The notes beneath the pieces were generated by a model, which saw nothing but the letters and a program-made list of their open reading frames with translations, ran no database searches and was not told where the DNA came from. The translations under genes were made by a program, and so were the position numbers. Positions 2-35,954 of a stretch of 64,000 nucleotides of DNA are shown here, piece by piece (position 1 is the stretch's first letter; the number at the start of each line of letters is the position of its first letter). The stretch comes from Polynucleobacter sp. MWH-UH19D (GTDB lineage Bacteria > Pseudomonadota > Gammaproteobacteria > Burkholderiales > Burkholderiaceae): positions 310,001-374,000 of the forward strand of contig NZ_CP099571.1 in NCBI RefSeq assembly GCF_040409795.1. Direction: 5' to 3'.

Positions 2-580
2 GCGCTCATAGCAGCCCTTTATCTACTTTTTTATCTTAAGACAAAAAGAATCATCATCTATGGATTATCGGCCGCTTTTGTTCTGGGGGTATTTTTAGGT
101 GTTGCTTACTTGGCAAGCCATAACCCAGAATTAACGGCTCATAATGAGCGAATATTTCGTTGGGAATATGGTTATGAAGTCATCACAAGCAATCTGTCAA
201 ATTTCAATAGCTATATTCGGTTGCAGCCAGAGATATTTCATCCAATATCAATCAATTTAATCAATTCGCCATTTAATCAAAACGAGCCACTATTCTTATT
301 TAATGCTGAAGGGTATTATTTAACAGATATGGTAAATTATGGTTTGATACCAGGGTTAGTATCACTGTTTGTATTGTTTTGCATCTATATTATAAAGTGC
401 TCAGAACTCCAAAATACAAAATCAATTGAAAGTTTAGCGCTGAGTGTCTTTTCCTACTTTATTTTTCTAGATTGCTTCTACTCTTACACCATTGGAGCAA
501 TTCTAGTCATCCTCTTCTATTGTATTTATCTTGCTCGTAGCCCTAACCCACTGAGAGCGGGCATTAGGGGGTGCTATTAA
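2..580 (+). CDS. C-terminal part of a polytopic membrane protein, probable Wzy-type polysaccharide polymerase (5' truncated by window edge)
   Basis: The frame is open from base 2, so the true start lies outside the window; the TTG near 110 is only an internal codon. The visible part has a hydrophobic segment at once (around YGLSAAFVLGVFLGVAYLA), then a ~70-residue polar loop with several aromatic residues, then two or three hydrophobic helices at the C terminus. A large extracytoplasmic loop followed by terminal helices is the layout of O-antigen polymerases/ligases (Wzy, WaaL, O-antigen ligase-like families). The position just upstream of sugar-nucleotide genes fits a polymerase. Sequence conservation in this class is too low to name it firmly. 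It matters because the only other polymerase in the window, at 28485-29734, is broken. Confidence 0.55.
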   Translation, partial: ALIAALYLLFYLKTKRIIIYGLSAAFVLGVFLGVAYLASHNPELTAHNERIFRWEYGYEVITSNLSNFNSYIRLQPEIFHPISINLINSPFNQNEPLFLFNAEGYYLTDMVNYGLIPGLVSLFVLFCIYIIKCSELQNTKSIESLALSVFSYFIFLDCFYSYTIGAILVILFYCIYLARSPNPLRAGIRGCY

Positions 581-5894: not shown

Positions 5895-6593
5895 ATGAAA
5901 ACTTTCGATAAGGATCAATGGCTAAGCTCAATTTTGGGGAAGAATGTATTTCAAGTTGACTCTAAATTCGCATCGCAACTAACTCCTTCACACTTGCCAC
6001 AAGGCCCAGCGCTTGTGATGGTAAAAGTACCTGTCAGCAATATTCGGGATTGCAAACATTTACAGGGACTTAATTTTTTTCTAGTAGACACTAATATCCA
6101 GTTGCAAAAATTACGTGATAAAAGCGGTTTATTAGTGAATAGTATGAATGTAAGATTTGCAAATCCCTCTGATGAGGAGGCGATTTTAAAAATCGCAGCT
6201 AACTCATTTACCTATGATAGGTTTCATGGCGATCCTGGTATAGCGCACAAAACTGCTGAAAAAATAAAGGTAGAGTGGGCCCAGAATTACTTCAGGGGGT
6301 CTCGAGGTGACTGGATGGTTGTGGCAGAGGATGGTGGCATTGTTTCTGGTTTTTTGCAGCTATTACATGGTCAAGACGGTGTGCTTATAATCGACCTCAT
6401 TGCAGTGGGTGCGAATTATCGCCATAAAGGAGTCGCCCAAAAGATGATTGGGTTTGCAATCCAAAATTGTGAAGCAAAGATTGATATTGTAAAAGTGGGT
6501 ACTCAGATTGCAAATCTCCCCTCAATTTCTCTATATCTCAAAATGGGGTTTTATATTACCTCTGCACACTATATTTTTCATTGCCACCTATAA
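5895..6593 (+). CDS. GNAT-family N-acetyltransferase acting on an amino sugar (inferred)
   Basis: The C-terminal ~140 residues of this 232-aa protein form a GNAT domain. The N-acyl-CoA pyrophosphate loop is VGANYRHKGVAQKMI (about residues 175-189), a variant of the RxxGxG/A motif, and a typical end LYLKMGF follows. The N-terminal part contains FTYDRFHGDP, reminiscent of dTDP-amino-sugar acetyltransferases such as WecD and of SpsD-type proteins. Its place between an aminotransferase/epimerase pair and a NeuB-type synthase suggests acetylation of a newly introduced amino group. The next ORF opens inside its last codons. Confidence 0.75.
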   Translation: MKTFDKDQWLSSILGKNVFQVDSKFASQLTPSHLPQGPALVMVKVPVSNIRDCKHLQGLNFFLVDTNIQLQKLRDKSGLLVNSMNVRFANPSDEEAILKIAANSFTYDRFHGDPGIAHKTAEKIKVEWAQNYFRGSRGDWMVVAEDGGIVSGFLQLLHGQDGVLIIDLIAVGANYRHKGVAQKMIGFAIQNCEAKIDIVKVGTQIANLPSISLYLKMGFYITSAHYIFHCHL

Positions 6594-6604
6594 AAATTTC
6601 TTAT

Positions 6605-7606
6605 ATGAACTATAGTTTTAATCGAAACAACAAAGTGTTTATTGTTGCTGAAATTGGTAACAATCATGAGGGTAGCTTTGATCTAGCGTTGGAGATGGTG
6701 GAGGCCGCCGCAAAAACAGGTGTTGATGCTGTTAAGTTCCAAACATTCATACCAGCAAAATATGTTTCAAGCGAAGATTCTGTTAGGCTAGAAAGACTTA
6801 ATAAATTTAAGCTATCAAACGAGCAGTATCTACAGATTGCTAAAAGAGCAGAAGAATTAGGAATAGTATTTTTTTCAACTCCTTTTGATCTAGAAAGTGC
6901 TGCATTTCTAAATAAAATTCAACCGATTTTTAAAATTTCATCTGGAGATAATAATTTCTTCCCATTGATTGAGGAGGTGGCATCTTATAAGAAGCCAACA
7001 ATAATTTCCTCTGGCTTGGCAGATTTAGGTGCCTTAAAATATCTGGTTGATTTCTGGCACGGCATTGGAGGGAGGGATGAAAATTTAATTATCATGCATT
7101 GTGTCTCCAGCTATCCAGTCCCTGTTGATCAGGCAAATTTGCGGGCAATTTCAACCCTGAAAAATATTTTCCCAAATTTAATTATTGGATACTCGGATCA
7201 TACCCTGGGTATCCAGGCTTGTGTTTTGGCTGTCGCAGCTGGTGCGGGAGTTATTGAGAAGCACTTTACCTTGAGCAAGAACCAGTCAGACTTTCGTGAC
7301 CATCAACTATCTGCAGACCCTTTAGAAATGAGAAGCTTGGTAACTCAGGTTCGTGAAGCGTCAATTCTGTTGGGGAGTGGAGTAAAAAATTTGCAGCCTT
7401 GCGAAATAGATATGGTAAAGCTTATGAGGAGATCAATTGCTGCTTCTCACGCCCTTAATGCTGGACAATTGATTTGCAAAGAAGATTTAACATGGGTGAG
7501 GCCAGGTAATGGCTTTTCAGTTGGAAGGGAAAATGAGGTAATTGGTAAAAAAATTCTGCGAGATGTTATTCAGGGAGAGTTGATAACAAAAGATAATTTA
7601 ATATGA
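6605..7606 (+). CDS. NeuB/SpsE-type nonulosonic acid synthase (PEP-condensing) with C-terminal SAF domain
   Basis: From ATG 6605 this is a 333-aa protein. The TIM-barrel N-terminal part starts VFIVAEIGNNHEGSFDLALE and continues VDAVKFQTF, FFSTPFD and KISSGD, all hallmarks of sialic/pseudaminic/legionaminic acid synthases that condense PEP with an N-acylated amino hexose. GYSDHTLG, EKHFTL and DHQLSADP are the conserved active-site strands. The last ~60 residues (RRSIAASHALNAGQ to KDNLI) form the antifreeze-like SAF domain. The frame extends upstream to a TTG at 6581 inside the GNAT gene, but the ATG matches family length better. It implies that a nine-carbon or related ulosonic acid is made. 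The sub-type cannot be fixed without phylogeny. Confidence 0.9.
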   Translation: MNYSFNRNNKVFIVAEIGNNHEGSFDLALEMVEAAAKTGVDAVKFQTFIPAKYVSSEDSVRLERLNKFKLSNEQYLQIAKRAEELGIVFFSTPFDLESAAFLNKIQPIFKISSGDNNFFPLIEEVASYKKPTIISSGLADLGALKYLVDFWHGIGGRDENLIIMHCVSSYPVPVDQANLRAISTLKNIFPNLIIGYSDHTLGIQACVLAVAAGAGVIEKHFTLSKNQSDFRDHQLSADPLEMRSLVTQVREASILLGSGVKNLQPCEIDMVKLMRRSIAASHALNAGQLICKEDLTWVRPGNGFSVGRENEVIGKKILRDVIQGELITKDNLI

Positions 7607-22195: not shown

Positions 22196-23935
22196 ATGAG
22201 TTCACATAGGCTTAGTCAAATTGTTACGGCATCCCCCATTTTTTTTAAATATGTATTTAAAAACTTCCCGCTAACATATGTGGCCTTAATTGGCATACTT
22301 TTAGGAGTTATTTTAGAGTATGCAGTTCTAAGCATTATGATTCCGCTTAGCGTGAGCGGAGGGGCTCAAAATATAAGATCAGTAAAAGTTATAGAGCTAT
22401 GGAATGAGGTTGCTTATTTTTGCAGTATGCCAAATGATCCGGCAACATGGTTATGGATTTTTTTGCTGTTATTTAGCTTGCGAATGATTATTGGTCTTTT
22501 GCAAATCATATTAAACACAATTATCTCTAAAAAAATTCACGCCGAACTCTCGGCCTCCACCTTTGCAGCGGTAATATCAAAAGTTCCAATAAGCGAGATT
22601 TATAAACGCACAATAGGTTACTACATGGGTTTAGCCGGGGATGATGCTATTCGGGTGGGCCAGTTATTCTTTTCATTTGTTCAAATGTTGTCGGCATTAT
22701 TAGCAGCTTTAGTAGGTTTGGCGGTATTGTATTTATATTCTGCAAATGTTTTTATTTTCACTGTTATATTTTTGTCTATATGTGGTTTCATTTTAGGGTT
22801 TTTACTTGAAAAAATATTAACTCTCAGTATTGAGTCTTCTAAATTTTCTCGGGAGGCATCAACAGCATTTATTGAGGCTTTTAATGGACTTAGATCTATA
22901 AGATCCATGGCTGCAGAAAATTATGTAGATGCGCGATATAAGAAAGCTGTTTACCGTTATACAAAAGTACTATTTAGGATTGAGGTATTTAATCATGCTT
23001 CTCGAACTATTCCAGGGTTAGTGCTATTGGTTGGGGGATTAGTTTTAATTTTCCCGGGGTCTGGATTGATCGAGAATGTCTCGATAGTATATTTTTTTGT
23101 AGTTACTACAATGTTGGTGAGAGTACTCTCATTTTTGGGTGTAGCAGTTTATTCTGGGGGGAAGCTCGCGGCTGATATAAGGGCTGTGCTTGATTTGAAG
23201 CAGATTATCATTGAGTCTGAAAAATATAAAGGCATTGAAACTAAAAATAGCCCTATAGAAACAGTTAATAAAATAGTCTTGTCAGATTTATCTTGTGGTT
23301 ATATTGCAGGACAGCCAATACTAAGTGGTATTACGGCGCAAATGAAGCCGGGAACAGTTTATGCATTAATTGGCAAGTCTGGATCAGGAAAATCTACTCT
23401 GTCAGATATTTTATTGGGGTTGCTTCAACCCATGGCAGGGGGACTAGAGATAAGTGGTATTCCATTTGAGAGGCTTGATATTAACTCGATACGCCGAAGA
23501 ATAATATTAGTTGAGCAGCAAACGCGTATATTTAGTGCAAGTATTAGAGAAAATATTACATTTGGATTCCCATCAACCGATAGTGGAATACGGGCTGCAG
23601 TTGATGCATCTGGATTAACCGAGTTTATAGATTCGTTACCATTTGGAATAGATACTGAACTGGACTATCAAGGGGGAAATTTGTCTGGCGGACAGCGTCA
23701 ACGTATTGGGTTGGCACGAGCTTTAATAAGAAATCCTGATATGCTGATACTTGATGAGGCAACCAGCGCATTAGATCCACAAACAAGAGATGCGGTCTTG
23801 AAAAATTTAATGATGTTGTATAAGGAAAAAATACTCCTATTCATTACCCACGATAAATATTTAATTGAACTAGTGGATGAGATATGGCGCATTCATAATG
23901 GAAGGCTCGAAATTAGATCAAATGTTACCCCCTAA
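22196..23935 (+). CDS. ABC transporter with fused membrane and ATPase domains, MsbA/PglK-like exporter or flippase
   Basis: The 579-aa half-transporter has six predicted helices in the first ~320 residues (for example YVALIGILLGVILEYAVLS). A complete nucleotide-binding domain follows: Walker A GKSGSGKST (about residues 393-401), Q-loop VEQQTRIF, signature NLSGGQRQR (about 495-503), Walker B MLILDEATSALD and H-loop FITHDK. Such fused exporters in glycan loci flip lipid-linked oligosaccharides (PglK) or lipids (MsbA). No Wzx-type flippase is seen in the window, so this is the best candidate to translocate the repeat unit. The downstream FkbM gene starts inside its 3' end. Confidence 0.88.
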   Translation: MSSHRLSQIVTASPIFFKYVFKNFPLTYVALIGILLGVILEYAVLSIMIPLSVSGGAQNIRSVKVIELWNEVAYFCSMPNDPATWLWIFLLLFSLRMIIGLLQIILNTIISKKIHAELSASTFAAVISKVPISEIYKRTIGYYMGLAGDDAIRVGQLFFSFVQMLSALLAALVGLAVLYLYSANVFIFTVIFLSICGFILGFLLEKILTLSIESSKFSREASTAFIEAFNGLRSIRSMAAENYVDARYKKAVYRYTKVLFRIEVFNHASRTIPGLVLLVGGLVLIFPGSGLIENVSIVYFFVVTTMLVRVLSFLGVAVYSGGKLAADIRAVLDLKQIIIESEKYKGIETKNSPIETVNKIVLSDLSCGYIAGQPILSGITAQMKPGTVYALIGKSGSGKSTLSDILLGLLQPMAGGLEISGIPFERLDINSIRRRIILVEQQTRIFSASIRENITFGFPSTDSGIRAAVDASGLTEFIDSLPFGIDTELDYQGGNLSGGQRQRIGLARALIRNPDMLILDEATSALDPQTRDAVLKNLMMLYKEKILLFITHDKYLIELVDEIWRIHNGRLEIRSNVTP

Positions 23936-24623
23936 TATAAATAAATCGTTCAAGAGTTTTCTATCCAAGATAATTAGAAATATCCCTCATGGCCGCATAT
24001 CTTTCTCTCAAGAAGGGGAGGATTTAATCCTTTCAAGAATATTTCAAGTAATGGGAATAAAGAATGGTTTTTATGTTGATATAGGAGCTCACCATCCTTT
24101 CAGATTTTCTAATACCTACTATTTTTATAAAAGGGGATGGAGGGGAATCAATATCGATGCACTACCAGGAACTAAGAAAATATTTAATTTTTTCCGTCCT
24201 AGAGATATTACTATTGAATGCGGAATATCATCTATCGAATCTACGATGACATATTATGCGTTCAATGAGTCAGCATTAAATACATTCTCCAAGGAAGAGG
24301 CTCAGTCAAAAGAAAGCTCAAAATATAAAATAATTGATGAAATTCAAATATCTGTAACAACTCTAAAGAAAGTATTAGATAACTATCTGCCAATGGGTGC
24401 AAAGATTGATTTCATGTCAATTGATGTTGAGGGCCTTGATCATGAGGTTATTTGTTCCAATGATTGGTTAAAATATCGGCCTACCATCATAGCGGTTGAG
24501 TTGCTCAATTCATCTATTGAAGACATAAGAAGGCATCCCACTGCTGCTATATTGTTCCAACATAATTACAAGATTCTTGCAAAGACACACAATACCTTCT
24601 TCTTTTCTCAAGCTAACGCCTAA
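23898..24623 (+). CDS. FkbM-family methyltransferase
   Basis: About 241 aa if started at ATG 23898; ATG codons in the same frame also occur at 23877 and 23922, and all three overlap the ABC gene, so the start is uncertain. Core motifs are SFSQEGEDLIL, FYVDIGAHHPFRFSNTY (SAM motif I), GWRGINIDALPG and DFMSIDVEGLDHEVI, the FkbM D-x-E-G-x-(D/E) segment. It is a compact FkbM domain without extensions. The ABC transporter/FkbM overlap suggests translational coupling. It likely O-methylates a sugar, perhaps as a chain-capping or decorating step. Confidence 0.83.
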   Translation: MEGSKLDQMLPPNINKSFKSFLSKIIRNIPHGRISFSQEGEDLILSRIFQVMGIKNGFYVDIGAHHPFRFSNTYYFYKRGWRGINIDALPGTKKIFNFFRPRDITIECGISSIESTMTYYAFNESALNTFSKEEAQSKESSKYKIIDEIQISVTTLKKVLDNYLPMGAKIDFMSIDVEGLDHEVICSNDWLKYRPTIIAVELLNSSIEDIRRHPTAAILFQHNYKILAKTHNTFFFSQANA

Positions 24624-24653: not shown

Positions 24654-26621
24654 ATGAAATATAGAGCTGACATTGATGGTCTTCGTGCCGTTGCAATCAT
24701 CTCAGTAATTGGATTTCATGCGTACCCCAATTTGTTAAAAGGCGGTTTCACTGGCGTAGATATTTTTTTTGTTATATCAGGTTACCTGATTACAACAATT
24801 ATTCTTAATGAATTAGAAAGCGGCGACTTTAAGCTAAAAGAGTTTTATATTCGACGCATTAGGCGCATATTTCCTTCATTATTGCTTGTGCTCCTGTCTT
24901 CTTTAATGTTTGGTTGGTTTGCACTTTTTGCTGATGAATACAAGCAGCTTGGTAAGCATATTTTTGGAGGATCCACTTTTATATCTAATTTCATATATTG
25001 GAAGGAAAGTGGATACTTTGATGATATTGCCGAGAAAAAACCTCTATTGCATTTATGGTCTCTTGCTATAGAGGAGCAGTATTATTTGGTATGGCCGTTG
25101 CTAATTTTAATCTTTTGGATCAAAAAAATAAAATTAGCAGTAATAATTTTAGCACTTATTTTTGCATCCTTTATCTTTAATATATTAACTGCCAAAGTAA
25201 ATATAACCGCTGCCTTTTTCTTGCCACATACAAGATTTTGGGAATTAATGGTTGGTTCAATGGTAGCTTATTCAATGCTATATGCAAGCCAATACGCAAG
25301 ATATTTATCTTTATGGAAAAAGTATCTTTTGAGCATTATCCATGAAAACCTCTTTGGTGCAAATCTTAGTAAATATTACATAGAATTGCCATCAATTATT
25401 GGTGGCATATTAATTATCGGATCAATTTTCTTAATAACTAAGGAATTTAAATTTCCTGGATGGTGGGCAACACTTCCGATAATGGGTGCTACATTCGTAA
25501 TAGTTAGTTCACAGGATGCATGGATAAACAGAGTCATATTAAGTCATAAATTTATGGTTTGGCTTGGCTTGATAAGTTTCCCTTTATATTTATGGCATTG
25601 GCCTATCTTGTCATTTGCAAGAATATTAGAAGGTAAAGAACTATCTGCATGGACTAGTTCATTTTGCATTTTTTTATCCTTAATTTGCGCTACTATCACA
25701 TACTACTTTATAGAAAAACCCATTAGATTTGCTGAAAATAAATATAAAGTTTTAATGCTTATGGCTTTAATGATTGTAATAGGCGTGAGCGGTTATATAG
25801 TCAGCAAGGAGAATGGTTATGATTTTCGAATTCAATCTCGTGAGATTATTCTGAAGCAGTTTGATTGGGACACTTTGTATAATAAAAGCGAGGAATGTCA
25901 AAAAAAATTCCCAGGGGGGGATTATTGCAATATCTCCAATTCTAATAGCCCTCCAAACGTAGCCATTATTGGAGACTCCCATGCGAATCATTTCTATTGG
26001 GGGTTAAGTGAATACTATAAAGCTAAAAATAAGAATTTAATTAATATGGGAGTTGGTGGATGCCCACCTTTTCTCGGTATCAGTATGAGTGGTCCAAGCA
26101 CTTCGCCTAATTGCTATTCAAGAATGCTTCCAATATTTAACTATGTCCTAAACAATAAATCCATTGATACGGTCTATATTGCATTTTGGCATAACGCATA
26201 TTTTGATAAACGATTAATTTATACAGATAATATGGGGAGTATCTGGGGCAATGATAATTATGAATATGTTTTTAAGGCTTTTGAGCGAACGCTTATGAAA
26301 CTGCGTAGCCATGGAAAGCGTGTAATCCTAATTTACGATTTGCCAGATATGAAGGAAGGAATAAAAGATTGCTTCCTGAAAAGGCCCATTGTCCCAACAA
26401 AGATATGCACATTAGATGAATCTATATTTATTGATGACTATAGTCAGTATGATCGATTGATTAAAGATCTTGTTATTAAGCATAATCTTGAAATATTTGA
26501 TGCAAGAAAATATATTAATGGAAACTTCCCGGTCGATAAGTATGGAGTGCCAATGTATCGAGACTACTCTCATTTATCCATAAATGGTTCTCTATTCTTT
26601 GCTGATAAATATTGGCAATAA
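24654..26621 (+). CDS. OafA/YrhL-type O-acyltransferase with C-terminal SGNH domain
   Basis: The 655-aa integral membrane protein starts YRADIDGLRAVAIISVIGFH, the signature of acyltransferase-3 proteins with the catalytic His in the first helix. GGFTGVDIFFVISGYLIT and the R-R-x-R-R motif in YIRRIRRIFPSLL follow. About ten membrane helices extend to residue ~390. The C-terminal ~260 residues are an extracytoplasmic SGNH-like domain: AIIGDSHANHFYWGL (block I, Ser) and DYSHLS (block V, Asp/His). This fused form moves acetyl groups across the membrane and places them on glycans. It would O-acetylate the locus polysaccharide. Confidence 0.9.
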   Translation: MKYRADIDGLRAVAIISVIGFHAYPNLLKGGFTGVDIFFVISGYLITTIILNELESGDFKLKEFYIRRIRRIFPSLLLVLLSSLMFGWFALFADEYKQLGKHIFGGSTFISNFIYWKESGYFDDIAEKKPLLHLWSLAIEEQYYLVWPLLILIFWIKKIKLAVIILALIFASFIFNILTAKVNITAAFFLPHTRFWELMVGSMVAYSMLYASQYARYLSLWKKYLLSIIHENLFGANLSKYYIELPSIIGGILIIGSIFLITKEFKFPGWWATLPIMGATFVIVSSQDAWINRVILSHKFMVWLGLISFPLYLWHWPILSFARILEGKELSAWTSSFCIFLSLICATITYYFIEKPIRFAENKYKVLMLMALMIVIGVSGYIVSKENGYDFRIQSREIILKQFDWDTLYNKSEECQKKFPGGDYCNISNSNSPPNVAIIGDSHANHFYWGLSEYYKAKNKNLINMGVGGCPPFLGISMSGPSTSPNCYSRMLPIFNYVLNNKSIDTVYIAFWHNAYFDKRLIYTDNMGSIWGNDNYEYVFKAFERTLMKLRSHGKRVILIYDLPDMKEGIKDCFLKRPIVPTKICTLDESIFIDDYSQYDRLIKDLVIKHNLEIFDARKYINGNFPVDKYGVPMYRDYSHLSINGSLFFADKYWQ

Positions 26622-26684: not shown

Positions 26685-27638
26685 ATGAAAAATAAGGATT
26701 ATCATTCTCATGACTTTGCTCCAATAGTGCTGTTTGCATATAATAGACCAGAACATCTGTCTAAAACCTTAAGCGCTTTAGCAAATAATCCAGAGTTTTC
26801 TTTAAGTCCACTGTTCATATATTGTGATGGGGCAAAACGCTCTAGTGACCAAGTGAATGTGAATAAAACCCGAGTTATTGCAAATCAGTTCCCCCATCCT
26901 AACAAGGTCGTAATTGAGTCAACTCTTAATTTAGGTCTAGCTGCATCAGTAATACAAGGTGTTACCCAAATAACTAATAAATACGGGCGGATTATTGTTC
27001 TCGAGGACGACTTAATTGTCGATGTTTATTTTCTAAAATTTCTTAATCAGGCATTGAACCAATATGAAAATAATTCGAAAGTAATGCAGATTTCTGCATA
27101 CATGTTTCCAATACCCATTTTTTCTCAAAGGGCTACTTCGTTGCTTTTGCCAAATATATCAAGCTGGGGTTGGGCCACATGGAGACGCGCTTGGAAAAAT
27201 TTTGATCCAACATCTACTGGATGGGAGTTGCTTTTGAATAATAAAGCTATGAGGCAAGAATTTGATGTTGGTGGGAGTTATGCATATTCGGATATGCTGT
27301 TCAGGCAAGTATTAGGAGAGATAGATTCTTGGGCGATTCGTTGGAATTGGAGTGTTTATCTTTGCTCGGGGTTAGTTTTGTACCCCCCAGTTTCTTTGGT
27401 GAAAAATATTGGGTTTGATGGAAGCGGCACGCATTGTGCTGCTTTGGATATTGATGAGGTAAAATTTAGTTCTGGAATAAAAGATATTAAATTCCCTGAA
27501 GATGTACGTCGGTCTAAAGAGGATTTGTTCCATATCGAAGCTGCGCTAAAAAAGTTGAGCGGTCCAAGCTACATAAGATTCTTAAAATCAATTGCCAATA
27601 ATTTTCGCCGTTTAAGGCTTAGGCATAATTTTTTATGA
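26685..27638 (+). CDS. GT-A fold glycosyltransferase-like protein
   Basis: The 317-aa protein begins with a GT2-like Rossmann opening (APIVLFAYNRPEHLSKTLSAL, about residues 12-32). It has a metal-binding acidic motif in RIIVLEDDLIV (about residues 104-114), followed by SSWGWATWRRAW, a segment frequent in glycosyltransferases of O-antigen loci that also carry the LEDD motif. No membrane helix is visible. It stands alone between an O-acyltransferase and a methyltransferase gene with modest gaps. Donor and acceptor unknown. Confidence 0.8.
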   Translation: MKNKDYHSHDFAPIVLFAYNRPEHLSKTLSALANNPEFSLSPLFIYCDGAKRSSDQVNVNKTRVIANQFPHPNKVVIESTLNLGLAASVIQGVTQITNKYGRIIVLEDDLIVDVYFLKFLNQALNQYENNSKVMQISAYMFPIPIFSQRATSLLLPNISSWGWATWRRAWKNFDPTSTGWELLLNNKAMRQEFDVGGSYAYSDMLFRQVLGEIDSWAIRWNWSVYLCSGLVLYPPVSLVKNIGFDGSGTHCAALDIDEVKFSSGIKDIKFPEDVRRSKEDLFHIEAALKKLSGPSYIRFLKSIANNFRRLRLRHNFL

Positions 27639-27723: not shown

Positions 27724-28458
27724 ATGGATCACCAGGATCAACTATTAAATGAGAAATATGCGAGGTTATACGAGGGCTACTATGATAAGAATGAGTGGTT
27801 AGTTAAAAAGCGAAAGTTATCTGCAATCGATTCGGCGAGAAATATCATTGATGCGACTAACAAATCTACTAATTTAAGTCTGCTTGATGTCGGGGCGGGC
27901 GATGGCAATGTCTTGGCTGAGCTTTCGGGAACGGGGGTCTTTGTTAGGATGGTAGCCCTAGAGATTTCCGACAGCGGAATAGAAAAAATAAAATTGCGAA
28001 ATATTTCAGAGTTAAATGAAGTAAAGAAATTTGACGGTTATCAAATTTCTTTTAAAAATAAAGAATTTGATCTTGGTATTGCCATACATGTACTTGAGCA
28101 CGTCGAACATGAGCGTTTGTTTCTAAGTGAGTTGGGTAGAGTCTCCAAAAAAGCTCTCATTGAAGTGCCCCTTGAGCATGGATTCAATATTTGTCGCGCA
28201 ATTTCAAATGGAAAGAAAACTGGACATATTAATTTTTATACGATAGAAACTTTGGCCAGCCTGTTGGAAACCTCCGGTTATAAAATTATTGAGAGCAAAG
28301 TGACAGCCCCTTCTGTTGAGTATGAGAAGCTTTTGTATGGAGCAAGTAGAGGTAGAGTGAAAAATATTTTGCGCAAAATTTTATTAAAATTTTTCCCTAC
28401 CACTGCACCAAAATTTTTTACATATAACGGTTATGTATATTGCGACTGCCCTGATTAA
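27724..28458 (+). CDS. Class I SAM-dependent methyltransferase
   Basis: In this 244-aa protein motif I is LSLLDVGAGDGNVLAEL (about residues 52-68). The second acidic position lies in MVALEISDSGIEKI, and FDLGIAIHVLEHVEHERLFLSEL is a typical motif IV/post-IV region of Methyltransf_11-type enzymes. GHINFYTIETLASLLETSGY is a common C-terminal helix. It is the last intact gene before the wzy pseudogene. Probably sugar or lipid-intermediate methylation. Confidence 0.82.
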   Translation: MDHQDQLLNEKYARLYEGYYDKNEWLVKKRKLSAIDSARNIIDATNKSTNLSLLDVGAGDGNVLAELSGTGVFVRMVALEISDSGIEKIKLRNISELNEVKKFDGYQISFKNKEFDLGIAIHVLEHVEHERLFLSELGRVSKKALIEVPLEHGFNICRAISNGKKTGHINFYTIETLASLLETSGYKIIESKVTAPSVEYEKLLYGASRGRVKNILRKILLKFFPTTAPKFFTYNGYVYCDCPD

Positions 28459-28484
28459 TTACAGGCTATTCTATACGGTCTTTC

Positions 28485-29734
28485 ATGAATAAGTCGATTT
28501 ACTTATTCTATGGATTGGTGTTGCTCTCATTCGGTCTAGTTGTGAATGTAGTGCATTTTGATCAAAACTTTCCACTGATCATAGTGTATCTATTAATAGG
28601 AATTATCTCGATAAAAGTTGTAGCCAAAAAGGATTGCGGGACGATGACGCAAGCGGCAGGAATTTTTTCCCCTTATTCTCTTTTCAATTTTCCCAATAAA
28701 TGAGTTGGATAATGAGAGTATTTACTGGGGTGGAGAAGAATTTTCCGAAGAAGCTAGGTTACTTGGCGTACGCACTTCATTATTATTCGTATCCCTTTTT
28801 TGGATGGCATTATAAGTAAGATTTTCATCAAGCAATTTAGGCCATCCATTAATTAATATGTCATTTAATATTTACGCTTTATCGGCTCAAAATATAAAGT
28901 GGTTTTTAGTTCTTTCATCTGGCGGACTATTCATTTTTTTGAGATTTTTGATCTTCACATATATTATTATTTGTTAAGGGCGGTGAATTTAGTGAGGGGA
29001 TAAATATTGAATCTAAGGCTGGCTACCTTTTCGTTGGATTTTTTTTTAAGCTCTATGTTATTAAATATGAGTTAGACTTATATCCTGTTGTGCGCAAAAA
29101 AAGTACACCATAAAGTATTTTTTAGGCTAGGGTTGCTTTTTTCAGCTTCGCCAAGCGGAATTTCACGGTTTCTTGTGGGCGCTCTCTACATACCACTGGT
29201 TTTGACATTCCTGATGAGGCAATAAAAAAATCATATATGTACGCCTCAAGATTTTTACTTATTTCCAAGTTTATTACTATCGGAATTGTTTTTTATATTC
29301 CCCATTCTTGAGATATTCAGGGAATTTTCATTTTTTGAATATCAGAGCGGGGGCACTTTGATGCATTCCAAATGTTCATGAGGGCATTAGATGCGGGCGA
29401 AATGAACTACATCTATGGATCTCTAGGAGCACTATTTTTTTATTCCAAGATCTATTTGGCCCTCAAAGCCGGTAAAATCAGACATCGAGATTTCTCTGTT
29501 GGTAGATTTGAGGTTGGAAAATGTATCCTTGCCAATCATAGGGGAATTATATTAGGCGCACCATTAATGAGGTTATTATTCAAAAAAATTGATTCAATTT
29601 ACTTAAAATACAAACACAGCTCCTTATCAATTGACCATTTAATATATTTTCAGTTTGTGGGCTCGGTTGTTTATAATATGAGGGGTGGCTTTCTTTCATC
29701 TTTTGCATTTACCGTCAGTATTCTCATGACTTAG
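28485..29734 (+). pseudogene. Frameshifted O-antigen polymerase (Wzy) pseudogene
   Basis: Reading the region piecewise in all three + frames recovers the parts of one membrane protein in order. A hydrophobic N terminus (28485-28703) comes first, then NESIYWGGEEFSEEARLLGV in another frame and ISRFLVGALYIPLVLTFLMR near 29160. HFDAFQMFMRALDAGEMNY lies around 29353-29410, and PRSIWPSKPVKSDIEISLLV plus LENVSLPIIGE follow in yet another frame from about 29440. LFKKIDSIYLKYKH and NMRGGFLSSFAFTVSILM end the gene in frame. These are the conserved blocks of Wzy-type polymerases (FDxxxMxMRAL, VPRxxWPxKP, GEhYxNFG and the RGDLLxSFAY-like end). I count at least seven frame changes and one in-frame stop, so it cannot make a polymerase. 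The short ORFs here, including 29372-29734, are fragments, not genes. Confidence 0.87.
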
Positions 29735-29805: not shown

Positions 29806-30726
29806 ATGCTTACTAAAATTGGCTCACTTTTTATCGCTTTGCGAACATTATTTACCCTCAATCGCGATCTAGATTTGATTAAGATTAACCAGGGGTTAAT
29901 ATTATCTAAAATGAACTTAAAAAAACCCCACTCTAGTTTGTCTAATTATGAGTTCAAAGTGTTTTCTCAGTGGGGTGAGGATGGAATCATACAGCATTTA
30001 ATTCAGAATGTTTTTATTAAAAATAAAAATTTTATTGAGTTTGGTGTCGAGGATTTTTTTGAGTCAAATTGCCGTTTTTTGCTACAAAAAGACAATTGGG
30101 ATGGATTTGTAATTGATGGATCAAGTCGAAATATTAAGAGACTTAGAAATTCATATTTTTATTGGAAGCATTCAATAAATGCATTGTGCTCATTTATTAC
30201 CCGAGAAAATATAGAAGAGCTTCTTTCGGTAAGTGGTTTTGATAAAGATATTGGGCTTTTGTCGGTTGATATTGATGGGGTGGATTATTTTGTCTTAGAA
30301 AAACTTACTACCTGGACTCCACGAGTTTTGATTGTAGAATTTAACGCAATGTTTGGGATGAATAGAGCGGTATCAGTACCGTATTCATCGGATTTTGTGC
30401 GATCAAATATGCACCACTCCAATTTATATTATGGTGCTAGCTTGCCAGCCTTTATTCATTTAGCTAACAATATGAATATGGCATTGGTAGGTGTTAATTC
30501 TGCTGGTAGTAATGCATTTTTTGTTCGCAGAGATTTATTGAATGAGAGTGTGTCAGAAGTATCTATTGGCAACTGTTTTGTTGGGGCTAAATTTCGTGAA
30601 GGTCGTGACGTAAACGGTGCTCTTATTTGTCAATCTAGTAGAGAGGAATTAAGTTCAATTATGCAATTGCCTTTAATAGACGTCATTACTCAAGCAACTT
30701 TAAAAGTTGGGGATTTGGCATGTTAG
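29806..30726 (+). CDS. FkbM-like methyltransferase-fold protein
   Basis: The 306-aa protein shows the FkbM-like opening FSQWGEDGIIQHLI (about residues 51-64), then NFIEFGVEDFFESNCRFLL at the SAM motif I position and LLSVDIDGVDYFVLEKL at the FkbM D-x-D/E-G segment. Motif I is degenerate (EFGVED in place of DxGAxxG), so SAM binding is less certain than for the other FkbM proteins here. A hydrophobic N-terminal stretch (KIGSLFIALRTLFTL) may touch the membrane. It lies directly after the dead polymerase gene. Similar proteins occur in polysaccharide loci, but I know of no assigned reaction. Confidence 0.68.
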   Translation: MLTKIGSLFIALRTLFTLNRDLDLIKINQGLILSKMNLKKPHSSLSNYEFKVFSQWGEDGIIQHLIQNVFIKNKNFIEFGVEDFFESNCRFLLQKDNWDGFVIDGSSRNIKRLRNSYFYWKHSINALCSFITRENIEELLSVSGFDKDIGLLSVDIDGVDYFVLEKLTTWTPRVLIVEFNAMFGMNRAVSVPYSSDFVRSNMHHSNLYYGASLPAFIHLANNMNMALVGVNSAGSNAFFVRRDLLNESVSEVSIGNCFVGAKFREGRDVNGALICQSSREELSSIMQLPLIDVITQATLKVGDLAC

Positions 30727-32886: not shown

Positions 32887-33648
32887 TTGCTAAAAATATC
32901 AGTCATTACCGCCTCATACAATAATTGTGGGACAATACAGCAGACATTAGACTCCGTATTATCTCAGACCTATCCAATTGTTGAGTATATAGTTATTGAC
33001 GGCGGCTCAACTGATGGCACCTTGAAAATCCTTGATTTATATAAATCAAAATTGGATGTTTATATCAGCGAACCAGACGGCGGTATTTATGATGCCTTAA
33101 ATAAAGGGATACTTCACAGCACTGGTGATATTGTTGGGTTTTTGCATGCGGACGATTTATTTGAAAGCGACGATGTTCTTGATAAGATTGCAAACGTTTT
33201 TAATGTCTCTAAGGTGGAGGCGGTATATGGAGATCTTGTATATGTTCGTAAAAATGATACTTCCAAAATTGTACGATATTGGAAATCCTGCGAGTTTAAC
33301 GAGATATTTTTACATAAGGGTTGGATGCCACCTCATCCAACCCTTTATATAAGGCGCTCCGTTTATAAAAGATTGGGAACCTTTGATACATCTTATCTTA
33401 TAGCGGCTGACTATGACTTAGTATTGCGGTTTTTTGGCAAAGGGAAATTATTTTCATCTCATATACCGGAGGTGCTGGTTCGTATGCGTCATGGCGGTAT
33501 AAGCAATAAATCAGTTAAAACAATTATTAAAAAGTCTTTAGAGGATCTTTCTATATTAAGGCGAAATCAAATTGGCGGAATTTTAACTTTAATAAGTAAG
33601 AATCTATTAAAGTTGGCACAGCTTATTCCAGGTCAAACGAAAAAATAA
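32887..33648 (+). CDS. GT2-family glycosyltransferase
   Basis: The 253-aa protein begins, from a TTG start, LKISVITASYNNCGTIQQTL with the GT2 nucleotide-binding strand. It continues VIDGGSTDGT (about residues 36-45), EPDGGIYDALNKG and the metal-binding HADD (about residues 84-87). This is a classic GT-A inverting transferase of the WcaA/WbyL kind, complete within one domain. It starts one base after the GT4 gene and is the last gene of the + strand polysaccharide run. Beyond it the mobile-DNA scar begins. Confidence 0.92.
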   Translation: MLKISVITASYNNCGTIQQTLDSVLSQTYPIVEYIVIDGGSTDGTLKILDLYKSKLDVYISEPDGGIYDALNKGILHSTGDIVGFLHADDLFESDDVLDKIANVFNVSKVEAVYGDLVYVRKNDTSKIVRYWKSCEFNEIFLHKGWMPPHPTLYIRRSVYKRLGTFDTSYLIAADYDLVLRFFGKGKLFSSHIPEVLVRMRHGGISNKSVKTIIKKSLEDLSILRRNQIGGILTLISKNLLKLAQLIPGQTKK

Positions 33649-33736
33649 GTGCAGAAATTTTTTACTATTGAATTGGATTCTTGCTTTACAGACAAGCACA
33701 TAATGTGATCCGGGATATAGTCGCAAATTATTGATC

Positions 33737-34130
33737 TTAGCTAAGGCGCCTACTTTGCTCTAGATATCTCATTACTGTATCAGTCTTAGACCATCTTCCG
33801 GGTTGCATAATGATGGGCATACTTGCTCCTGAATTGAGTAAATTCTGCGCTCCACCTATGCGCATCGAGTAACCCCTTATTCCTTTGATAACAAACTCAT
33901 CAAGCTCAGCAATTCTGACAATTCTTTTTATAGATTCGATTGACTTGCCCAGAACCCAGACTGCTGCGTGATGTTGCCCTGCGCGATCAATGCTAACCAC
34001 GAGGTATTCCTGCTCTTCAGGAAGTTCTTTTAACTACTTAGTCAAAGCTAAATGAGATCTTTGACTTAGATGTAGCCATTTCCCTGTCGAGTATTGATCG
34101 GCCTTACTTTTTCTCGGGAGGATGAATAAA
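33737..34130 (-). pseudogene. Tyrosine recombinase (integrase) C-terminal pseudogene
   Basis: On the minus strand the frame gives SLFILPRKSKADQYSTGKWL, then LALTK, a TAG stop at 34036-34034, and LKELPEEQEYLVVSIDRAGQ. It continues GIRGYSMRIGGAQNLL and RWSKTDTVMRYLEQSRRLS to the end. This is the catalytic C-terminal domain of a phage-type integrase; the stop sits where a Trp (TGG to TAG) would be expected. The HxxR box reads YSMR, so its His is also lost, while the nucleophile Tyr in MRYLEQ remains. The N-terminal and first catalytic Arg parts are absent. It is a dead remnant that marks an old integration at the edge of the polysaccharide locus. Confidence 0.78.
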
Positions 34131-34370
34131 CTCTCAATTGATCGCCGCTTTACTGAAGAGGTGTATAAGTTATCGATAAATTCGGATGGTAGTGATGCGA
34201 AGGAGATAGAAACGCTCATCCAAATGGTGGAATATATCAAACCCTATCGTCGGCGTAACATTTTAGTGTCTCAGCTTAAGCATATTAAAGCAGAATTTAA
34301 AAAACCATACGCATTGATCTTAGATGCGTATAAACAAGTCAAACCTTTGGCAACTAAGGATCCAACTTAA
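34122..34370 (+). pseudogene. Possible decayed gene fragment of unknown function
   Basis: An 82-codon frame with protein-like content (EIETLIQMVEYIKPYRRR, LVSQLKHIKAEFKKPYALIL) starts at the inner end of the integrase remnant and runs away from it. After its TAA the same frame continues with EELGYLKVRLSDWLENIQFP before a second stop at 34464. That pattern suggests a longer gene broken by stop codons. I recognise no family. It could instead be a chance ORF, since its start overlaps the integrase fragment on the other strand. Confidence 0.3.
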
Positions 34371-34540
34371 GAGGAGTTGGGCTATTTAAAGGTTCGCCTG
34401 TCTGATTGGCTAGAAAATATTCAATTCCCTCGTGTATTGATTGCTTGCTTCCTCCAATTGAATTAAGAATACAGTGCAATAAATCCAGAGAGCAAATCGA
34501 GGAAGGTATTGTCCAGATTCGGTAAGAGCGTTTTTTAAAG

Positions 34541-34833
34541 ATGATGCAATTGGGTGGAGTGCAGCGCGCCAGTGATGAGCTTAATCGCGCCATGATTCGA
34601 GCTATAGATAAGTGCCGTAAGCACCATGAGTGGGGCCTTCAGAACTGGACAGAGCAATTACCTAGTGATGATGCTAAGCAGCTCACTTCAGAGTGGGGGC
34701 TTATTTATTTAAGAATGAGACGTATTCGTAAAGAAGAATGAGTCCGTTTTGTGGATTTTTAGTTGATCAGGTAGGGTAAAGATGCGCCCGCTAATGCCGT
34801 ATATCAAGCTTTGGTGGAGGATATTTTCAAAGG
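34541..34833 (+). pseudogene. Possible decayed gene fragments of unknown function
   Basis: A 66-codon frame (ELNRAMIRAIDKCRKHHEWG, TSEWGLIYLRMRRIRKEE) ends at 34741. The same frame, after two more stops, gives GKDAPANAVYQALVEDIFKG, which looks like a true protein C terminus, ending at a TAG at 34832-34834. The stops break up what may once have been one gene. No family is recognised. The stretch meets the end of the minus-strand glycosyltransferase gene, so that gene and this remnant converge. Confidence 0.25.
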
Positions 34834-35916
34834 TTAGTAAAGACGAAACCACTTTGGTGTTTGGAATTTTACAATTCTCCAATACAGCCAAGTATAAAAA
34901 ATAACATATATACAAAAGAATGAGAAAAGCATCATCGTAGACTGATAGAAGAGGATCCCTGGGGCTATAGCCGAAGAGCACAATACCCAGAGAAAAGGTG
35001 ATGTTTTGGAGTTTGCGGTCTGGGCTGCTATGGCGCTCCCTTTCCCCCCTGTGTTAAGTACCCGTCTAAAAATTAGTGAATGAAAATGTATGCCATCAGG
35101 GTCCCCTGGATTCTTTCCCTGATGAATTTTTCGGCGATAGATTGTAAATAAGGTTTCTGTGATTGGATAGCCATTTACGAGTAATGCAAACCATGGAGAG
35201 ATCTCATTGTGACGTACCACCATTAAGATGCTAATAATTGCAATCCAAAAGCCAATCAAATAAGCTCCACCATCTCCTAAGAAAATTAAGCCACGAGGGT
35301 AGTTCCAAATAAAAAATCCCAAAATCGCTGCGGCCATTGTTATGCTTAAATAAACTAGAGGAAAGTCGTTAAATTTAAATCCTACGTACCCCAGTGCTAA
35401 TAGGGTCATGATGGCTACCATACTTGCTAGTCCATTAAAACCATCAATAATGTTATAGGCATTTGACAGCCCAGTAATGGCAAACGTAGTAAATAGCATT
35501 GCAATTAAGGGAACTTGGAGAACGTAGTCAAAACCCCAGACATCAAGGGATGTAATTTCTGCTCCCAGCCAATGGCTTGCTGCAAGTGCCCCAATAGCAA
35601 TGGAAAGCAATCTTGCCCTAATGCTGATGGATTTGGTGATATCTTCAGCAAAGCCAATTCCAAATGGGAGGATTGCGCATAGAATGAATATCAACTCTAT
35701 ACTTTGGCCATCCTTTCCAAGCCAGCGCAATGCAGTCGAAAGAATGATTCCTAAGCCAATCCCCAGCCCTCCAATTCGAGGTACAGAAAATTCATGAAAT
35801 TTTTGTGGCCCACTAAGGTCATGATCTGCTGAGTAGAGTGCATGCAACCTCTGGGTGCGAATAATCAGAAGTGTTGTGATGAAAGAGGTAAAAAAGGCCA
35901 ATAGAATTCCAGACAT
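34834..35916 (-). CDS. WecA/TagO/MraY-family undecaprenyl-phosphate sugar-1-phosphate transferase
   Basis: From ATG at 35916 this is a 360-aa polytopic protein (the frame extends ten codons further to a TTG). PQKFHEFSVPRIGGLGIGLG matches the first cytoplasmic loop of the family. NAYNIIDGFNGLA carries the catalytic Asp motif, FLGDGGAYLIGFWIA the next, and GNPGDPDGIHFHSLIFRRV corresponds to the basic HIHH-like loop. About ten helices are expected. The enzyme transfers HexNAc-1-P to undecaprenyl phosphate and so starts O-antigen-type units. It is opposite in direction to the polysaccharide run and directly follows a RecT-type gene, so transcription may come from the YqaJ/RecT promoter. It is a strong candidate initiator for the locus. 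Confidence 0.88.
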   Translation of the reverse strand: MSGILLAFFTSFITTLLIIRTQRLHALYSADHDLSGPQKFHEFSVPRIGGLGIGLGIILSTALRWLGKDGQSIELIFILCAILPFGIGFAEDITKSISIRARLLSIAIGALAASHWLGAEITSLDVWGFDYVLQVPLIAMLFTTFAITGLSNAYNIIDGFNGLASMVAIMTLLALGYVGFKFNDFPLVYLSITMAAAILGFFIWNYPRGLIFLGDGGAYLIGFWIAIISILMVVRHNEISPWFALLVNGYPITETLFTIYRRKIHQGKNPGDPDGIHFHSLIFRRVLNTGGKGSAIAAQTANSKTSPFLWVLCSSAIAPGILFYQSTMMLFSFFCIYVIFYTWLYWRIVKFQTPKWFRLY

Positions 35917-35954
35917 GGCTTGATTATAGATTCTAGATGCTCTCAATTTTTCAT

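Follow-up and report, generated by a model that had tools for sequence, protein, structure and literature searches.

A surface-polysaccharide locus in the window (the whole stretch of DNA analysed here, 64,000 nucleotides corresponding to C1:310001-374000 of a one-contig genome of 1,950,979 bases) carries the remains of a polymerase gene. The best explanation, to which we assign a probability of about 0.8, is that this gene is a decayed wzy relic, that the locus now yields no more than single repeat units or is becoming silent, and that a second assembly line makes the loss tolerable. Here, we lay out the evidence for the decay of the gene, describe its surroundings, and weigh other accounts of the broken frame and of the fate of the repeat units.

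The broken frame and the former identity of the gene

All three forward frames were examined between positions 28459 and 29805, and none of them is open throughout; they contain 36, 15 and 27 stops, respectively, and the longest stop-free run is 131 codons. Polymerase blocks are read in order as one protein across alternating frames, as the original prediction had stated, and the absence of an open frame together with a full-length alignment to an intact homologue confirms that description. The features concerned are:

28485..29734, + strand: Wzy-class oligosaccharide repeat-unit polymerase pseudogene, assigned by homology to the intact G163 protein, frameshift alignment, controls and lost family residues
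29372..29734, + strand: longest ATG-started open piece left in the relic, 120 amino acids from its C-terminal part

When the relic is read through as a single protein (with X at unclear joints), it finds one close homologue in the genus sample of 186 genomes, a 446-amino-acid open reading frame in genome G163 (E 1.8e-44). Frameshift-tolerant alignment of the two extends over G163 residues 7-438, with 157 identities in 401 positions, 7 frame changes and 2 in-frame stops, so that the relic is homologous over its full length to an intact member of the family, itself situated in a partly syntenic polysaccharide locus. The stop at 29732 is the relic's own end, and therefore one internal stop is firm; further internal stops may be hidden by the frame changes. 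Lowering the frameshift penalty from 25 to 8 raises the frame changes from 5 to 14, and because the G163 reference is just 35-39% identical or thereabouts, the exact number and position of the breaks are uncertain. The proposed figure of at least seven frame changes thus survives as the best estimate, while the safe minimum is five.

Two controls bear on this alignment. Its score of 526 compares with scores of 75 or less in 20 dinucleotide-preserving shuffles. Moreover, four intact genes of the locus, aligned in the same way to their G163 homologues (44-62% identical), gave 0 frameshifts and 0 stops, in agreement with the claim that the flanking genes are clean. The comparison with a relative holding an intact gene, which had been suggested as a check, has in this way been made, and the relic is broken against an intact homologue. 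Judged from the sequence, the gene has suffered several independent disabling changes relative to that homologue, as expected of a pseudogene, and positions 28485-29734 can no longer specify a complete polymerase under the standard code. Homology to G163, the frameshift alignment and the shuffle and neighbour controls all support the predicted Wzy-class polymerase pseudogene.

What assigns the dead gene to this class? The intact G163 homologue matches NCBIfam family TIGR04370 (oligosaccharide repeat unit polymerase) with E 9.1e-10 and 38.1 bits, the curated cut-off being 40 bits, and matches PF14296 only marginally. It resembles TIGR04370, a Wzy-class family related to PF14296, in its length and in its DAY/DAF, LLFFxPRSIWPxKP and MRGG blocks, whereas the window copy has five or more breaks and, read through, gave no Pfam or NCBIfam match in the family scans. 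A scan of genome contigs uncovered 41 intact relatives in many phyla, and the family alignment contains the conserved elements HFDAY, LLFFVPRSIWPxKPxGSG and an RG near the C-terminus. The structure of one intact relative was modelled with pLDDT 82 and pTM 0.85. The best solved neighbour of this model is the WaaL O-antigen ligase 7TPG, a weak match (Z 6.6, rmsd 5.9 A over 249 residues); Foldseek with the same model returned no significant match, and a search for sequence matches to solved structures for the polymerase family found none. By family and locus context, then, the gene is judged to have been a Wzy-class polymerase, with the fold serving only as a hint.

The surrounding locus and a proposed adjacent assembly line

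The genes on either side of the relic, in order, are as follows:

22196..23935, + strand: intact ABC exporter of MsbA/PglK type (PF00005, PF00664), candidate unit flippase
23877..24623, + strand: intact FkbM-like gene, 45% identical to its G163 counterpart, with 0 frameshifts
26685..27638, + strand: intact glycosyltransferase-like gene, 44% identical to its G163 counterpart
27724..28458, + strand: SAM methyltransferase-like gene (by reading), intact upstream neighbour of the relic
29806..30726, + strand: FkbM-like methyltransferase gene (by reading), intact downstream neighbour of the relic
32887..33648, + strand: intact family-2 glycosyltransferase-like gene; its G163 counterpart (47% identity) immediately follows the intact polymerase gene
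33727..34127, - strand: tyrosine recombinase (phage-type integrase) remnant, a second decayed gene, with 76.7% nucleotide identity to G163 over 403 columns
34834..35946, - strand: intact GT4 initiating transferase (undecaprenyl-phosphate sugar-1-phosphate transferase type; PF00953), right border of the locus, 62% identical to the G163 border gene

The window and G163 have in common the order FkbM-like gene, glycosyltransferase, wzy, family-2 transferase, tyrosine recombinase and minus-strand GT4 border gene, and the intact shared genes are 44-62% identical at the protein level. The intact G163 polymerase thus sits at the corresponding end of a surface-polysaccharide locus with partial synteny to that of the window. 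An ABC exporter is also common to the two loci and is more distant, the C-terminal half of the window protein being 35% identical to the ABC gene of the G163 locus; the exporter matches NF050066 (PglK) with E 2e-50, a score far below the cut-off and one among many ABC families matched.

The recombinase remnant sits between the last transferase of the locus and the GT4 border gene. G163 has an intact recombinase (324 amino acids) in the corresponding position, and PF00589, which is weak in the window remnant, is clear in the G163 protein. Since this gene has also decayed, the right end of the locus consists of two relics, and the earlier description of an otherwise intact locus holds for the remaining sugar genes and fails for the recombinase. 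More broken open pieces occur at 34122-34740, including an 82-amino-acid open reading frame at 34122-34370 with no family match; perhaps they represent another relic.

The two immediate neighbours of the relic were considered as a means of dating the decay through close relatives of the same version of the locus. This approach was abandoned: none of the 186 genus genomes contains a relative of the upstream methyltransferase at E<=1e-15, and the downstream FkbM-like gene has relatives in 6 other genomes of the genus, the best of which, in G176, is located elsewhere, between housekeeping genes. A search among plasmid records gave no DNA match.

From a reading of its genes, the locus probably makes a nonulosonic acid, with a NeuB-like synthase at 6581-7606 and a cytidylyltransferase-like gene at 2008-2682. 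Between positions 731 and 33648, no multispanning protein was found beyond the ABC exporter and an acyltransferase (24654-26621), which leaves no other polymerase of the locus's own. One further membrane protein lies at the left edge of the window:

window 2..580 (C-terminal 192 amino acids; complete gene at genome C1:309375-310580), + strand: intact 401-amino-acid multispanning protein, candidate remaining polymerase

The original prediction had taken this protein to be truncated. That reading is corrected here, as the gene is cut by the window edge only. The 401-amino-acid protein has about 9 hydrophobic helices, and its gene comes directly after a minus-strand GT4 gene (L002:18268-19347), upstream of which is a cluster with a MOP-type flippase, transferases and, by reading, GtrB/GtrC-like genes. 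This GT4 gene and the one at window 34834-35946, both on the minus strand, bracket the nonulosonate-type locus; their products are 47% identical to each other, and the window GT4 is nearer to its G163 counterpart (62%).

No Pfam, NCBIfam or PDB sequence match was obtained for the 401-amino-acid protein, and hhalign detected no similarity between it and the polymerase family of the relic. Many Wzy proteins lack family matches. The only relative of the protein in the genus is found in G283 (L069:1222-2478). A galE-like N-terminus, with 77% identity over 62 residues, falls within the first 95 or so residues of this G283 open reading frame and is fused in frame to the polymerase-like part, an arrangement that would be a recombination scar or a fusion, and the reading frame adjoins a Wzz gene, lying before it. 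Its topology and its place beside an initiating glycosyltransferase make it plausible that the 401-amino-acid protein is a polymerase. The proposal of this protein as a candidate polymerase thus retains these two arguments and lacks a curated family match. Taken as a whole, the region resembles a pair of neighbouring assembly lines that each have an initiating transferase, the second of the pair having lost its polymerase.

Alternative accounts of the units and of the breaks

What becomes of the repeat units? It is possible, if somewhat doubtful, that the locus exports single units, giving a capped core or serving some other acceptor, and that the dead polymerase reflects selection for short glycans. 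A single unit on lipid A-core corresponds to semi-rough LPS (PMC12004945). The ABC-type exporter and the transferases are intact, a WaaL-like ligase is encoded elsewhere in the genome (C1:250598-251944), and no Wzz was found in the window's genome, all as this account would have it. However, the profile detected Wzz in no more than 52 of 129 congeners, missing some likely ones, so that the absence of Wzz says little and was dropped as a sign of lost polymerisation. In addition, no PglB/STT3-type transferase was found, and the intactness of the other genes may reflect recent loss alone.

A polymerase switch, in which the units are now polymerised by the 401-amino-acid protein encoded about 28 kb upstream, seems unlikely. 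At the left edge of the locus, an intact protein with about 9 helices does adjoin an initiating transferase, and its sole relative in the genus adjoins the gene of a chain-length regulator. Against a switch, a Wzy enzyme usually acts specifically on its own unit (PMC12004945), and this protein has neither a family match nor similarity to the dead polymerase; it fits equally well as the polymerase of the neighbouring MOP-type flippase cluster. A stable surface change, with the complete locus and its ABC-type exporter displaying single nonulosonate-type units while the adjacent locus provides polymer, appears improbable. If it were true, one bacterium would bear both a capped and a polymerised glycan, arising from two initiating transferases.

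Are the breaks real? Sequencing error is an unlikely cause, to judge from the kind and distribution of the changes. The competing account, to which we give very little weight, is that the gene is intact and that a poorly covered patch acquired indels at homopolymers. Indeed, four of the seven breaks are no more than 5 bases away from a homopolymer of at least 5, and the A+T-rich relic has 12 runs of at least 6 in 1250 bases, as against 103 in 31.1 kb of the locus. The other three breaks, however, are 26-35 bases from any homopolymer of at least 5. Moreover, the 29 intact genes of the locus in the window, which make up those 31.1 kb and include 44 runs of at least 7, have no break at all. If errors fell at random on runs of at least 6, the chance that all seven breaks would land in the polymerase gene is about 1e-7, although a local patch of low coverage would not be random.

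The residues of the protein bear on the same question. Among the conserved family residues, defined as those kept in at least 17 of 19 intact relatives, 23 are kept in the relic and 13 are absent, and several of the 13 also differ in intact G163. Those kept in G163 and changed or missing in the relic are F65, F261, G308, G332 and the Asn-Phe pair N357-F358, and the segment containing this pair is missing from the relic. Errors at homopolymers do not account for in-frame stops, for the absent conserved segment or for substitutions at positions conserved in the family. The original prediction had argued against poor sequence quality, and breaks away from homopolymers, the lost segment and 31 kb of clean sequence support it indirectly. 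Phase variation, or recoding in which programmed frameshifting carries translation through the gene, might account for the breaks at homopolymers, but 5-14 breaks, in-frame stops and a lost conserved segment are beyond rescue by single-tract slippage, and this idea was ruled out by the number and kind of the breaks, leaving it a negligible chance.

Proposed tolerance of the loss and its significance

Most likely, polymer now comes from the neighbouring locus, and the present locus, its polymerase lost, yields single units or no product. In such a scheme, one horizontally variable wzy gene would have decayed through several small indels, one or more in-frame stops and the disappearance of a conserved segment. 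The other reading frames of the locus, for sugar synthesis, transferases, the ABC-type exporter and the initiating transferase, are still open, and its output would presumably be limited to single repeat units or be dwindling to none. The adjacent second line has its own initiating transferase, its MOP-type flippase and the intact 401-amino-acid polymerase-like protein, and the loss would be tolerated because this line could keep recycling the shared lipid carrier. We infer separate action of the two loci and a polymerising role for the 401-amino-acid protein; the buffering through a shared carrier would be analogous to that in Enterobacteria.

E. coli survives the loss of an O-antigen polymerase as long as the carrier lipid is recycled by a parallel pathway, whereas in S. 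flexneri, where the parallel pathway is limited, the polymerase is essential (PMC11813082). The situation proposed here is like that in E. coli in that a stalled polymerase step would be tolerated given another carrier-recycling pathway. It differs in that the E. coli result was obtained in Enterobacteria with ECA, while the present case involves two gene clusters with two initiating transferases.

Decay of genes in O-antigen clusters is common, and wzx, wbaU, manB and others have decayed in the rfb clusters of Salmonella (PMC6712391). The likeness to the present locus lies in the loss of single genes from otherwise intact O-antigen clusters; the difference is that the Salmonella survey set thousands of strains from a single genus against reference clusters, and here the comparison is with distant intact homologues only. 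The loss of the polymerase is thus an ordinary kind of gene loss, a new instance of the known decay of O-antigen genes. The locus offers a clean example of a surface-polysaccharide locus without its polymerase beside a neighbouring line that has been retained, and the carrier-recycling model predicts tolerance of exactly such a polymerase loss beside a second line.
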